A stretch of DNA of 64,000 nt, from positions 62,001 through 126,000 of the forward strand of contig JABSSW010000054.1 of assembly GCA_018902385.1 (NCBI GenBank), in the 5' to 3' direction. A program made the translations under genes and the position numbers. How positions within the stretch are numbered: position 1 is the stretch's first letter; the number at the start of each line of letters is the position of its first letter. The DNA is from Physcia stellaris (lineage: Eukaryota; Ascomycota; Lecanoromycetes; Caliciales; Physciaceae). Below, one piece after another: positions 44,234 through 51,909 of the stretch. The notes beneath the pieces are model-generated. The model did not search any database, had not been told where the DNA came from, and saw only the letters and a program-made list of their open reading frames with translations.

Positions 44234-45990
44234 ATGGGGTACGAAAAGGACATTGACATCGAGCAGCATTCTCCATCTGATCGCTACTCGGGGGAGAAGC
44301 TGCCGCCACCCATCGATACCGATGCTACTACCGGCGTTCCGGGCGAGAGCTTCGAGATCGGTAACTCTCTGTACGCGAGGTTGCAGAGGGCTGTAGGCAA
44401 ATATGGTGTGGAGCAAAGAGGCATTGAGAGAGTGCCAGAAGATGAGCGCACCGATTCGAGTCTCGTCAAAGTTGGCACCATGGTATTGCCCAGAACATCC
44501 TCCGCCATAATGGAATCTGGCTGCTGATCGGAAATTGAACAGTGGCTGGCAGCCAACCTGGTCGTGTCTAGTTTCGCAATTGGCGCTTTGGGAGTTACCG
44601 TCTTCCACCTTGGTTTCGTCGATGGGCTGCTCACCATCCTCTTCATCAATCTGCTTGGAATTACGCCCGTATGCTTTTTCTCAACATTCGGTCCTCGCTA
44701 TGGCTTGCGCCAGATGGTCCTTTCGAGGTTCTTCTTCGGCTATCATGCCGTCAAAGTCAGTAAGTATACGCGACTTTCACGACGCCTTTTGAGCGATGTT
44801 CTCCGTGGACATGTGGCTAAACAGTTGATAGTTGCATTTTTCAATATCCTCGCATGCGTTGGCTGGTCGGCTGTCAATGTCATTGTAGGAGCCCAGCTTC
44901 TGAACGCGGTCAACTCCAATCTACCGGGCTACGCAGGCATCATTATCATTGCAGCGTGCACCTTCATCATCACCTGTTTCGGATACAAAGTGGTCCACAT
45001 GTATGAGATGTACTCATGGGTTCCCTGTTTTATCGTTTTCCTCATCGTGCTTGGAGAGTTTGCACATTCAGGAGACTTCCAGAATCTCACAATGCACACT
45101 GGCAGCGCCGAAGCAGGCTCGGTTCTGAGTTTCATGGCGAGTGTGTATGGGTTCGCAACCGGCTGGACCAGTTATGCGGCCGATTACACCGTCTATCAGC
45201 CGGCCAATGTGTCTCGTACCAAGACGTTTTTCTGGACTTGGCTTGGTCTCATATTTCCCTTGTGTTTCACCGAAATGCTTGGTCTAGCTGTTGCCACTGC
45301 TACCGTGGGTGCCGAGGACAATCCATACATTGTCCAATACAATAAAAGCCATATCGGTGGTCTGCTGGCAGCAGTACTGTTTCCCCCGTTGGGGCGCTTC
45401 GGTCAATTCTGCCTTGTCATCCTTGCTCTCAGTATTATTGGCAACAATTGTCCAAACATTTACAGCGTGACCTTCAGTCTACAGATCATGGGTCGCTGGA
45501 CTCAACATGTGCCAAGATTTCTTTGGACATTTGTTGGAACGCTAATTTACTGTGCTATCGCCATCCCCGGCTATTCACGTTTCGAACAGGTGCTGGAGAA
45601 TTTCATGCTACTCATTGTACGTTCAGGCCCTGATTGTGTCGTATACTTATTATGAGGTGATTGTTAACATGCTCTCAGGGGTATTGGCTGGCCATCTACG
45701 AGGGTATCTCCCTGATGGAGCACTTCGTCTTCGCCAAACGAAGGTACGACATCACCGCTTTCAATACTCCGTCACGACTTCCGCCGGGCATAGCAGCTTT
45801 GCTCGCTTTTTGCTTCGGTATCTTGGGCGCAGTCATGGGCATGGCCCAGCTGTGGTTTATAGGACCTATCGGCAAAAGGATTGGGCTTCCCGAGTACGGA
45901 GGTGACGTCGGATTCCTGCTGGCATTCGCATTCAGCGCAATTAGCTACTGCGGTCTGAGGACGTTCGAGAAGAAGTATTTCGGGCGCTGA
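44234..45990 (+). CDS. fcyB: NCS1 purine/cytosine permease (Fcy2/FcyB type)
   Basis: Proton-coupled plasma-membrane importer of cytosine and purines. Exons 44234-44482, 44543-44759, 44832-45616 and 45679-45990 give 520 aa, close to yeast Fcy2. A soluble N-terminus ends in GIERVPEDERTD; then about 12 hydrophobic segments, beginning with WLAANLVVSSFAIGALGV. Family signatures: FFSTFGPRYGLRQMVLSRFF, FFNILACVGWSAVNVIVGAQ, GFATGWTSYAADYTVYQP, and GYWLAIYEGISLMEHFVF. Intron 2 uses GTAAGT at 44760 and TAG at 44831; this gives AVKVIAFFNILACVGWS, better than keeping the 3n frame open across the segment. Substrate range within cytosine and purines is inferred from family. Confidence 0.92.
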
Positions 45991-46584
45991 AAGCATTATC
46001 GTCATGAGATTTAATTTTGTCGGTATGTATGTATGCGTGAAAGTATCATTCGATCTATTCCCGATTCCAAGTCTCGTCCCACCCTTGGTCTGTTGCCATC
46101 GCGTGAGCCTTTCATTCCGAAATCCACATTCTTGACTGCGATTGTTGGTCTCATAGAGTTCTCCAGTCATGACTCGTTACTGTACTTCTGTGAGCCAACG
46201 CTTGAGACCCTAACCCTCTCTCTTCGTGCTGTCATGAAGCTTGCCAAGACCGACGTCGACCCTGATCGGCGGCCAAGGGTTTAGGGGTCTTCATCCCGTC
46301 ATTCTTGTTGGTTTTGCAACTTTCTTACCTGCTCGCACTCGTTGGTAGTAGAAGTTGTCAGCTGAAGAAATCTCTGTAATAATTGTCTTCGATACCAATT
46401 CATCCATCCCCCTTTCGATTATTAATCATACAAGCATCAAGGCAAGATTCTTTGGCATCTCCATCGGGTTGCAGGGCAGCGTCATAACCAGATATTGACA
46501 TCGATTCACCATTTCTTCCACGCTTCCACTGCATACTCCTCCTTCTAATTCCGGATCTAGTGTCGTCTGTCGGATCCGAGTAGT
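45991..46584. other. Upstream region of the cyclophilin gene
   Basis: About 590 bases between permease stop and cyclophilin 5' end. No frame of note. Confidence 0.4.
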
Positions 46585-47516
46585 AGTACGTATTTCCAGC
46601 CTTGCACTTTCCTGATCCCTCTGCCCCACTAACACGTGACAGTGCCCCGCATCGTTTCTCCCTCACTGTCAAAAGCCCTCTTTACCTCATCCTCTTTTTC
46701 TCGGCTTCCTAGACATACACACTCCTCAATCCGAAACTTCCACGCATCACCTACAATCATGGCCATCAAGACCTATTTCGATGTCTCTTGGGAAGGGCCA
46801 GTGTTGGTAAACGGCAAGGTAACAAGCAAGGTCGAAAGTAGGCTTCCCCAGATTATCATCAGTAGCCACTACTGGCGATGCTTACCCACTGACAAACTCG
46901 AATGACTGACTGTGGGACAGATCAGTCAGGCCGCATCAACTTTGCACTCTATGATGACGTTGTCCCTAAGACGGCCGAGAATTTTCGTGCGTTGTGCACT
47001 GGCGAGAAGGGCTTTGGATACAAAGGATCGAAGTTCCACCGGGTGATCCCTGAATTCATGCTTCAGGGTGGTGACTTCACCCGTGGCAATGTAAGTTTGC
47101 CATGTGCTGCCGGCGGTAATGTCCATTTAGGAAGTTGTCAGCTAATTGTCGATGTCAGGGCACTGGTGGGAAGTCAATCTACGGAGAGAAATTCGCGGAC
47201 GAGAACTTCAAGAAGCAGCATGTTCGCCCTGGACTCCTCTCAATGGCCAACGCAGGCCCGAATACCAACGGCTCACAGTAAGCTTCTCCCCACCGGTGTG
47301 CGGATCCATTCATCCACAGGCGTTGGTTTAACAGCTTACAGGTTCTTCGTCACCACTGTCGTCACCAGCTGGCTTGACGGCAAACATGTAGTCTTTGGTG
47401 AGGTCGCAGACGATCAATCAATGGACATCGTCAAGGCTATTGAGGCAACGGGTAGTAGTACTGGCAAAATCAAATACTCCAAAGCCCCAACCATTGACGG
47501 TGCCGGACAGCTTTAG
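46585..47516 (+). CDS. Cyclophilin peptidyl-prolyl isomerase, probably dual mitochondrial/cytosolic
   Basis: Cyclophilin A type isomerase, cyclosporin-binding. The cytosolic form starts at ATG 46759: exons 46759-46837, 46921-47090, 47159-47277 and 47342-47516 give 180 aa. Signatures include [49 protein letters not shown] and [12 protein letters not shown]. In the same frame upstream of 46759 lies a mitochondrial-type presequence ([32 protein letters not shown]) with a cleavage-like RNFHAS, but no ATG before the stop at 46630-46632. An intron 46586-46642 (donor GTACGT, branch CTAAC, acceptor CAG) would join A46585 to TG and create the start codon. Neurospora cyclophilin is known to make both forms from one gene. 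The feature start given is that of the long form. Confidence 0.9.
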
Positions 47517-47745: not shown

Positions 47746-48604
47746 CTACTGTACAACACTTGCAAGCATTTTCTTCCCCCTTTTTCGAACGACAGCATCC
47801 AATATCTCTCGTACTTGTTTGCATCCATCTACGCCGACAGCCAGCATACTCTCCAACCTCTCCACTCTCACCTTCGTCTCCATTACACAGACGCTGACCC
47901 TCTCCCCTGCACCAAGAGTGCCCACCGTCAACCATGGCAATTCTAATTCCTCCTGTCCATTGAGGTCCAGCAAAGGGTCTGCAGTCTCGTTTTCTGCATC
48001 CCTTCCAGTATACGAGGGTATTGAGCCTGAGGTGCAAGCAACGATATAGTCGCTCATTGGTATCCCAGCGTCAATAAGTGCCAATGTAGCGGCATTGAGA
48101 CAGGCAGCAAGAAGTGCCCCATCCTGGGAGAGAATGGAGAGCGTGATTGATATTGTAGATCGAGGGTACAGGTGCGTAAATAATGTAGAGGAAAAGGCTG
48201 ACGAGATGGTCGCTTGCATTTCTATTGTTCGTCTAAGGAAGTCAGTCAGGAACTTTCTACGGCCTTTCTACCGCACTTTACTTCTAAAGCTCCAGGAAGA
48301 GTCAAGGATATTCGCACTTATCACCTCGTCCTCTTTTTCTTCTATCCACTCCGCTGAAGCCCGCTATCCCCACTTCAACATGAACGCTGGCCTTATCGTC
48401 TTGCCCCCCTCCTGCAGCCCCTCTCCGCACCTCTGCAGGCCCGCTCACAGTGCATATGACTTTAGTGTTGCCCATTTCGAGGTATGAACTGCCATCTGCA
48501 GCAGCTTGGGTCGAGATTTGAGCATGAATCCGGCGAAGCTCATTCCATCGCCGCCCGTCGAGGCGGAGGTGGGAGAGGGCGTAGATTGAGGTGTCGAGGG
48601 GCAT
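47746..48604 (-). CDS. rrp41: Exosome core subunit Rrp41/Ski6
   Basis: RNase PH-like subunit of the nine-membered RNA exosome ring, acting in 3' processing and decay of RNA. Exons 48604-48318 and 48232-47746 give 257 aa, near the yeast length of 246. Signatures: RLDGRRWNELRRIHAQIS, SYLEMGNTKVICTVSGP, the fungal Gly-rich insert, GDKRTIEMQATISSAFSS, LYPRSTISITLSILSQDG, AACLNAATLALIDAGIP and DYIVACTSG. The intron has a weak donor (GTGCGA) but closes as GDK-RTIEMQ. Its start is 181 bases from the divergent Snf2 gene. It is tail-to-tail with the cyclophilin gene, 229 bases apart, so the transcripts may overlap. Confidence 0.93.
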
Positions 48605-48785
48605 TACGGATTTGCGTGTGCAGTGTTCGATGAGGTGTTAGGTAGATATTGGAGATCCAATTTGAAATGAGAGACAGTTCTCACTTTGTGAAGAGCAGAC
48701 TGCTGAGATTTTTGGAATCGGGCGTCTTGCGGCGACGCGACAAAAAGACCCCGCGCGTCAACCTGTTCTGCATCGGTCTTCCACC
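48605..48785. promoter_or_regulatory. Short divergent promoter, rrp41 / Snf2 ATPase
   Basis: 181 bases between two start codons facing away from each other, so the promoters must share or overlap. The Snf2 side ends in CCACCATGG, a strong start context. No known factor site is claimed. Confidence 0.55.
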
Positions 48786-51700
48786 ATGGATGATGTTACA
48801 GCAGACCTGACAGACAGCGATGATCTCGATGTTACGCATAGTGTGAGGCGGGACCTTGAAGCTGATGCATACATTACAAGTATCTAAGCGCTGCTTACTG
48901 AATCGAGCGAGATTCATATTCTAACCTGCTGCAGAAGTAAACGACTCCGGCACAGCGACTGAGTCCGCGACCGATACCGACCATGGCGCAAACCAGAGAT
49001 CACGCATGCGCGATAGCAATGTCGGAGGTCAAAGAGTTGAATGGTCCGCTGATAGCGGTGACGACGAGTACGCAAAGTTCAGGGACCGCAAGGCCATCAA
49101 GAGGAAGCAAGCGGCCGCAAGCACTAGAAAAGCAAAAGCCGTGGAGAAAGAGAACGGCATTGGCAATACATCCAAGAAACGAAAGACAGCAAATGGCCCT
49201 GGTAAGAGCAAGGCTGCGAGCAGCAAGGCGAAAGACTGGGGAGACGCATCAGATGATGATTTAGGAATGGAGCACACCCTTCCAGTCTTCCTCCAGTCAC
49301 GCCGCTCTAGATTCGAAAAGCGTATGGAAAACCTCAAAGAGGCTGGATTGAGGCTGCCACCTGGATACGACGACGTCGACTTCTCGGATGATGAGAGACT
49401 GGAGGACCTCAAAGAGAGACCGAAATTTCCCGGAGGCAAGCAGTGGCAACCTTACAAAGATATCCAATTACCAAGGTCTCTAGGACTGATCCCAGCGCCA
49501 GTGGCTCAATATCTAAGGGGCTATCAGATCGATGGTACTGCTTTTCTACATGAATTATTCGTCTACCAGACTGGAGGCATTCTCGGTGATGATATGGGGT
49601 TAGGCAAGACTGTCCAGGTCATCTCGTTTCTTACTGCCGCGTTCGGCAAAACTGGGGACGAGCGCGATTCGAAGCGTATGCGAAAGAAGAGAAGAGCGGG
49701 AAGTTCTTGGTATCCTCGAGTCTTGATCGCCTGCCCCGGTACCTTGATTGAGAATTGGAAGGATGAGCTGAAGCGTTGGGGCTGGTGGCATGTCGATGTT
49801 TTTCATGGAAGCACGAGAGAAGGAGCCTTAGAAGCAGCTAAATCCGGCCGGATCGAGATCATGATCACGACATATACGACGTACAGGATGAACAAGGAAT
49901 CTATTAACGCGATCGAATGGGACTGTGTCATTGCAGACGAATGCCATCAGATCAAAGGCAGACGCTCTGAAACGACTCAGGCCATGAACGAGGTCAATGC
50001 TCTCTGCCGGATAGGCTTGACAGGAACCGCTATTCAGAACTCCTACGACGAGCTGTGGACCCTGCTCAACTGGACGAATCCTGGCAAGTTTGGTCCTATT
50101 TCGGTGTGGAAAGAGACCATAAGCAAACCTTTGAGAGAAGGGCAATCTCACGATGCTACAGTCTTTCAACTAAGCAAAGCTCGCAAAACTGCCGAGAAGC
50201 TTAGAGACAATTTACTTCCTCGCTTCTTCCTTCGCCGCTTGAAATCCCTTATTGCAGATCAACTTCCGCAAAAGAGCGACCGAGTCGTCTTCTGCCCATT
50301 AACAGACACTCAAAGCGATGCTTATGAGAATTTTGTCGACGGTGACGTCGTCCGTCATATCAAAGACTCTACTCTTCCATGTACTTGCGGTTCAGGCAAG
50401 ACACAGGGCTACTGCTGCTTCAAGTATCTTCCTGACGGTGGCAAGTGGCAGTCTTACGTCTTCCCATCCATAGCAAACCTGCAGAAGCTGTCCAATCATA
50501 TGGCAATCATGATCCCGCAGTCTAGCGACCCGAAGGAGAAGCAAGACAAAGATCTAGAAAGTCTTCAAGTCGCTCTACCGGATCAATGGCGTGAGTTGTA
50601 TCGCAGCCGCGACAGTATTCTTAATTACTCAAATCCAGAGTTCTGCGGCAAATGGAAGATTCTTAAGAAGCTTTTGAAGTTCTGGCACGGCAACGGGGAC
50701 AAAGTGCTTGTCTTTTCACATTCCGTGAGACTATTGAAGATGCTCCAAATGCTTTTCACCCATACATCCTACATCGTCGCTTACCTTGATGGAAGTATGT
50801 CCTTGCCAGACCGTGCAAAGGCCGTCGACGACTTCAACAGCGATCCTAGCCAGTTCGTCTTCCTGATCAGCACCAAAGCCGGCGGCGTAGGCCTGAACAT
50901 CACATCAGCGAACAAAGTCGTCGTGGTCGACCCCAACTGGAATCCATCCTACGATCTCCAAGCCCAAGACCGCGCCTACCGAATCGGCCAAAGCCGCGAC
51001 GTGGAAGTCTTCAGACTGGTCTCGGCGGGCACGATCGAAGAGATCGTCTACGCGCGCCAGATCTACAAGCAGCAACAAGCCAACATCGCCTACACCGCCA
51101 GCACCGAACGGCGCTACTTCAAAGGCGTGCAGGACGACAAGACGCAAAAAGGCGAGATCTTCGGCCTCGCCAACCTCTTCGCGTACCAAGGCGACAACAT
51201 GGTGTTGCGGGACATTGTCAACAAAACCAACGTCGCCGAATCCCGCGCGGGAGTCCAAGTCGTCGGCTTCGAGCTCTCGCAGGAAACCGACGACGACGGG
51301 GACCCCCTCCGCTCCGACGACGAAGACGGCGCCATGAGCCAGCTGGCCGCGATGGTCGTCGACGAGGCCGCCGAAATAGCCGGCACCACCGACCCGAAAA
51401 AAGCGTCCGGGAAAAAGAAAGAGAAAGTCAGCGCAGTGGTCAGGAAGAAAAAGAAGGTCGACCCCGTGCAAGCCATCCTCGCGGGCGCGGGCGTCGAGTA
51501 CTCGCACGAAAACAGCGAGGTCGTCGGCTCCTCGCGCGTGGAAGCCAAACTGAGCCGCCGCGCGCAGGAGGCGGGACTTGATATCGATATGGGCGGTATG
51601 CACGTCTTTGCTAATACGCAGGATCGGGCTTCGAAGCCTAAGTACGCCGCGGAGGAGAGTGATAGCGATCTTGTGGAGATTGATGGCGGACTAGATGGCA

Positions 51701-51909
51701 GTGAGAGGAAAGACGCGGGCGAGATCGAGTGGCGGTATCACCCCCCGCGGGAAGTGATGGAGAGACAGCTTTGCACGATGGCGCGGACGTTTGGGTATGA
51801 GGATGTGGTCGAGTTTGCGTGTGTCGTTGAGGGCTGGACGCAGGCGCAGAGGAGGGATTGTTTGGAGAGGTTTTATAGAGGTCGTAGGGAGAGGATGGGG
51901 CTTGTGTGA
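48786..51909 (+). CDS. Snf2-family DNA translocase, ERCC6L2-like
   Basis: Double-stranded-DNA ATPase for chromatin or DNA repair. Exons 48786-48879 and 48935-51909 give 1022 aa. The N-terminal 150 residues are acidic then Lys-rich. Motor lobe 1: LRGYQIDGTAFLHEL, Walker A DDMGLGKT (about 249), DEAH box as DECH (VIADECHQ, about 363), LTGTAIQNSYDELW. Lobe 2: VFSHSVRLLKML, STKAGGVGLNI, DRAYRIGQSRDVEVFRL. Between lobes sits CTCGSGKTQGYCC (about 513), a SEC-C-like zinc-binding pattern. The C-terminal FGYEDVVEFACVVEGW...RDCLERFY resembles the HEBO domain of ERCC6L2 as I recall it. The path after the motor (ESRAGVQVVGFE, then GAGVEYSHENSEVVGSSRVE) also fits the ERCC6L2 group. Codons turn strongly C/G-ending from about 50.84 kb on. 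Confidence 0.88.

Follow-up and report, generated by a model that had tools for sequence, protein, structure and literature searches.

A candidate intron-split start codon for a predicted mitochondrial form of a CypA-type cyclophilin in Physcia stellaris

The cyclophilin gene that begins at ATG 46759 in a contig of Physcia stellaris raises the question of how a presequence-like frame lying directly upstream of a cytosolic start codon could be translated when that frame holds no ATG of its own. The window, by which we mean the whole stretch of DNA that was analysed, comprises 64,000 nucleotides of contig JABSSW010000054.1 (positions 62,001 to 126,000, forward strand) and belongs to a genome of 44 Mb in 147 contigs, which its gene structure and protein similarities suggest to be that of a filamentous ascomycete; all coordinates given here are positions within it. 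The answer that we consider probable, judging from the sequence, is that this one CypA-type gene gives rise to both a cytosolic and a mitochondrial form, with the removal of an intron at 46586-46642 creating the AUG from which the mitochondrial form would start.

The cyclophilin gene and the frame upstream of it

Protein searches and in-frame joining define four exons on the forward strand, namely 46759-46837, which carries the cytosolic start ATG 46759, 46921-47090, 47159-47277 and 47342-47516, which ends in the stop codon TAG and is further supported by PF00160. Joined in frame, the exons of this gene (46759-47516) encode a protein of 180 residues. The product, taken together with the presequence, matches PF00160 with an E value of 1.7e-44, and comparison with solved structures confirmed its identity as a cyclophilin and added nothing beyond that. 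The joined exons and the PF00160 match show that the gene has both its own cytosolic start and a CypA-type cyclophilin domain, and ATG 46759 itself lies in a context with A at -3 and G at +4 (ATCATGGCC).

The upstream neighbour, on the same strand, is a cytosine/purine permease gene. Convergent with the cyclophilin gene is an RNase PH-type gene at 47749-48637 on the reverse strand, with matches to PF01138 and PF03725, which is probably an exosome subunit. Downstream lies an SNF2/ERCC6L2-like ATPase gene (48925-51906, forward strand), where the leader of ATG 49006 contains an intron-like site with a score of 19.6 in the intron model described below; its use would add an acidic extension of 35 residues, perhaps the true first exon of that gene. 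As for relatives, a scan of viral contigs returned no fungal homologue (seven stretches matched a pattern, none of them related), and neither did the best 80 of 162 genome contig loci, all of which carried bacterial record titles.

Protein and PF00160 searches of the organism's own genome returned stretches representing at least ten cyclophilin genes, and those from the other nine share 43-73% identity with the protein read from 46759. By eye, these others include an ER form whose leader is hydrophobic (C28) as well as Cyp40-like, TPR-containing (C3) and nuclear or multidomain types. One of these nine, L107 (G000 C16, reverse strand), has a lysine-rich N-terminal extension before its domain (MKKLKQMLKSDKSEKR...), a point that weighs against the reading proposed here. 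Among these genes, of which there are at least ten, the one at 46759 is the only source of CypA type that was recognised, again by eye, for both compartments.

The frame of ATG 46759 is open back to a TAA at 46630-46632 and holds no ATG over that distance, much as the sequence-only reading had described in calling attention to a presequence-like stretch there. The codons directly following the TAA are CAC GTG ACA GTG CCC CGC. The candidate presequence (46645-46758, forward strand) has five lysines or arginines and no aspartate or glutamate, and its maximal hydrophobic moment over 18 residues reaches 0.62 against a mean of 0.38 in permuted versions (P 0.014). A test for the combined features of an open frame, no acidic residues and five basic ones was passed by 363 of 10,000 shuffles (3.6%) and by 4 of 215 upstream stretches, a set that includes the candidate by construction. 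Codon usage lends the presequence no support, since its hexamer score is -0.385 per codon compared with -0.540 and -0.234 in the other two frames; the attempt to prove coding potential in this way failed, all three frames being negative. An in-frame presequence, and with it a predicted mitochondrial signal, appears to be present upstream of the cytosolic start.

This stretch forms part of a longer leader without ATGs. The 520 bases at 46239-46758 contain none on the forward strand, where 5000 shuffles averaged 5.26 and gave none with a probability of 0.0016, a figure that is flattering because the interval was picked to start past the last ATG, at 46234. For shorter stretches the corresponding probability rises to 0.04 (46440-46758) and 0.25 (46560-46758), and six ATGs occur within 45991-46238. 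A contrast between CAT and ATG in the leader was also considered and set aside as mostly a matter of composition, since the 16 copies of CAT compare with an average of 14.2 in the shuffles. In any transcript that begins within 46239-46758, the AUG at 46759 would come first unless the intron at 46586-46642 is removed.

Two aminoacyl-tRNA synthetases of the same genome provide a useful comparison. HisRS and AlaRS are apparently encoded by single genes (L125 and L130, both G000 C17, reverse strand) and presumably serve both cytosol and mitochondria. Each has an arginine-rich, presequence-like extension before its cytosolic start (MRYSFRTYARLSQISRSPP... and MRGVKVLGSRGSFFGHISSHSR..., respectively), and both extensions carry ordinary in-frame ATGs, so that the missing ATG at the cyclophilin gene calls for an explanation. 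These are two of the three synthetases examined; ValRS is left out here.

A candidate intron that would assemble a start codon

Sequence inspection, intron scoring and joining point to the following arrangement. A candidate leader exon ends with the A at 46585, and the canonical signals of an intron follow directly: GTACGT at the donor, CTAAC at 46629-46633 and ACAG at the acceptor, giving a 57-base intron at 46586-46642. The presumed branch A is at 46632, ten bases ahead of the last base of the intron, and the TAA noted above falls within the branch motif, where it would shut the longer frame if the intron were retained. Joining A46585 to the TG at 46643-46644 gives ATG CCC CGC and a protein of 219 residues in frame with the cyclophilin. 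The resulting AUG has A at -3 (AGTAGTATGC). The intron and the junction are confirmed at the coordinates that the sequence-only reading had proposed.

Three other donors would make the same ATG, at GT 46580 and GT 46583 (score 14.7 each) and at GT 46560 (13.6). The bases at 46580-46591 (GTAGTAGTACGT) contain three GTs spaced three bases apart, and since an A precedes each of them, a shift of the donor among the three would keep the same start codon. Overlapping the 3′ end of the candidate intron on the forward strand is also a CACGTG (46633-46638), which we take to be a hexamer of the E-box type. It might act in a promoter that drives a shorter message for the cytosolic form.

How unusual this intron is can be judged against a model built from 25 introns in 180 kb of the same genome, which were chosen by a rule that looked for consensus-like donors and branches with coding flanks at lengths of about 40-120 bases. 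The score covers donor, branch and acceptor and has no term for length. The candidate scores 21.5, above 84% of the 25 training introns, although the scores are partly circular, given that the rule demanded GT[AG]NG donors and YTRAY branches. Within a leader of 768 bases, introns of 45-115 bases with positive scores produce an in-frame AUG extension in four ways (scores of 21.5, 14.7, 14.7 and 13.6), all of which share the acceptor at 46642 and split the start codon between A and TG. No intron of that size range in the 768-base leader joins the frame to an upstream exon with a plain ATG. When longer introns are admitted, 28 combinations with a score of at least 8 and lengths of 40-760 bases yield an AUG extension, split and plain ATGs being pooled in this count.

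Chance expectations were taken from 4000 dinucleotide shuffles of the leader, in which extensions of at least 15 codons were counted; the figures are only indicative, as the training rule favours consensus-like introns. At a score of at least 21.4, shuffled leaders held 0.0035 introns each, and the whole set gave a single in-frame AUG extension and no split ATG. Lowering the threshold to 19.5 gave 6 extensions, and at 16.0 there were 90, of which 1 had a split ATG and 3 were presequence-like. Real DNA is richer in such sites, with 14 introns as good as the candidate in 360 kb of strand, or about 0.03 per leader length, a count that includes true introns and the candidate itself; the density is approximately ten times that of the shuffled leaders. 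Among 48 real ORF leaders from the same genome, 3 had an equally good intron, 1 had an extension and none had a split ATG. One of the 48 leaders, and one of the 3 with such an intron, should belong to a false start (46902) inside the cyclophilin gene, the leader of which spans the candidate intron.

The intron is most likely real, and removing it most likely supplies a mitochondrial precursor with its start codon. What the sequence offers for this reading are the splice signals, the open frame, a leader free of AUGs and the recognition of just one gene of CypA type. On this reading, long transcripts would begin upstream of 46585, and splicing of the 57-base intron would join A to TG. The AUG formed in this way would come first in the message and would open the frame of the 219-residue precursor with its putative presequence. 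A message retaining the intron, or one beginning downstream of it, would have the AUG at 46759 as its first and would yield the 180-residue cytosolic enzyme. In the former, the TAA within the branch motif would block the longer frame, and a leader of about 500 bases without AUGs would leave the unspliced message to be read solely from the cytosolic AUG. Both messages contain a complete frame, of 219 amino acids when spliced and of 180 when unspliced, provided that the transcript starts after 46236. The candidate routes to the cytosolic form are retention of the intron, a downstream transcription start and leaky scanning.

Competing explanations for the upstream frame

A stronger version of this reading holds that the start codon cut by the intron is the switch itself, with splicing turning GUG into AUG and the efficiency of splicing setting the ratio of the two forms. 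The sequence-only reading had proposed both a split start codon and a regulated switch. The former is well supported in the sequence by the strong intron, by the sole acceptor in the leader that provides the presequence with an AUG through an intron of ordinary length and by the single recognised CypA-type gene. The latter is not established, because the same pair of proteins would result from constitutive splicing combined with a downstream start or with leaky scanning, and we regard it as rather doubtful. A serious contender, to which we would give somewhat less than an even chance, is that splicing is constitutive and that there are two transcription starts, an upstream one for a spliced, mitochondrial message and another, from a promoter around or within the intron, for a short, cytosolic one. 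Splicing would then not be the switch, but the split start would stay real. For Cryptococcus, part of PMC11302930 describes alternative transcription starts by which a mitochondrial signal is left out, and the sequence here has CACGTG at 46633-46638 followed by a C/T-rich stretch. Against this, the hexamer is found 29 times in 180 kb, 9 of them in the window, so that a single copy means little. Of course, two transcription starts are one version of the best explanation, and the odds of both overlap.

The remaining alternatives do away with the split codon altogether. The mitochondrial form might be translated from an unspliced message at a non-AUG codon, for which GTG 46642-46644 (with A at -3), GTG 46636-46638 and CTG 46666-46668 (with T at -3) are all in frame, and mitochondrial starts of this kind are familiar from yeast GRS1 and ALA1. 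This seems improbable, as GUG is a weak start codon, the strong intron would stay unexplained and the two presumably dual-service synthetases of the same genome use ordinary ATGs. Still less probable is a longer leader intron, the best of which (46023-46642; 620 bases, donor GTATGT) shares its acceptor with the 57-base intron and would attach a plain ATG at 46004, giving MRFNFVVPRIV.... It scores 22.5 as compared with 21.5, but the score lacks a length term and was trained on lengths of about 40-120 bases, and it is therefore silent on a length of 620. Moreover, ATG 46004 sits 14 bases past a stop at 45988-45990; the frame ending there is taken to be the final exon of the permease gene upstream, although that exon alone has no Pfam match, and an ATG so close behind the presumed permease stop is probably part of the 3′ end of that gene. 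Finally, there may be no mitochondrial form, the site being an ordinary 5′ leader intron, which is common in fungi, or a match that arose by chance, with the presequence an accidental open frame in a C/T-rich leader. The frequency of presequence-like features in shuffles (363 of 10,000) and in upstream stretches (4 of 215) is in keeping with this, as is the unsupportive codon usage. We nevertheless think it unlikely, since an in-frame split ATG, a presequence and a genome in which no second CypA-type gene was recognised would all have to coincide.

Precedents and implications

Dual service by one cyclophilin gene has been described before. In Neurospora and Gibberella, both forms are attributed to a single gene in the cyclophilin passages of PMC1618848, in line with the sequence-only reading where Neurospora is concerned. 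As to the route in Neurospora (Tropschug 1988, as cited), the relevant passages of PMC1618848 and PMC3688495 differ, being divided between cleavage of a signal peptide and alternately spliced isoforms. The case at 46759 resembles Neurospora crassa cyclophilin and GzCyp5 of Gibberella zeae, as these passages present them, in having one CypA-type gene with forms distinguished by an N-terminal signal; it differs in that an intron-split start codon is not among the features that they describe. For Tolypocladium, it had already been hypothesised that a dual cyclophilin gene is alternatively spliced, and the part of PMC3688495 concerned with it ascribes the cytosolic and mitochondrial isoforms of both Tolypocladium and Botrytis BCP1 to alternative splicing of one gene, much as proposed here. 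The position of the splice is left unstated in that part of the paper, whereas here it would fall between A and TG.

Start codons cut by introns also have precedents. In Yarrowia lipolytica, 47 genes have a first coding exon that consists of the A of ATG, according to an excerpt of PMC2911113, and a 2026 survey of the same yeast (PMC13309789) counts 42 introns directly after the A, T or G of the start codon. The suggestion that a split start codon would in itself be notable is weakened by the 47 Yarrowia genes. Unlike the cyclophilin case, the Yarrowia introns are presented in these extracts with no described link to two products per gene. Splicing that determines the compartment is exemplified by PTC7 of Saccharomyces cerevisiae, where the spliced message is mitochondrial and the intron-retaining message serves elsewhere (PMC3597508, in its account of this gene). 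The retained PTC7 intron encodes a predicted membrane helix, whereas retention of the cyclophilin intron would abolish the upstream start codon. In Cryptococcus, MAE102 and IDP1 are made with or without a mitochondrial signal by alternative transcription starts (PMC11302930, in part), and the authors of PMC7961099 propose leaky scanning for SOD2, which has a very short leader. All three share with the cyclophilin gene the production of one protein with and without the signal, but no start codon made by splicing is described for them in those sections. A literature search at the level of titles and the openings of abstracts returned no intron-split cyclophilin start codon, a result that makes no claim about its absence from print. 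Each element, namely the split between A and TG, the dual cyclophilin and the splice-dependent compartment, has its precedent; the combination in one gene would be new as a variation on known themes.

If the proposed arrangement is true, the compartment in which the cyclosporin target ends up depends on a single short intron. Were it common, it would explain presequences of organelle genes that look startless, perhaps including the group F cyclophilins of Aspergillus, for which no signal peptide is reported in the corresponding section of PMC1618848. The same section places a separate CypA gene alongside them in the Aspergilli, so in group F this would be a hidden start and not a switch. Annotation that proceeds from intact ATGs can miss mitochondrial forms whose ATG arises by splicing, and, if the reading given here is true, further genes regarded as cytosolic-only may conceal organelle forms likewise.
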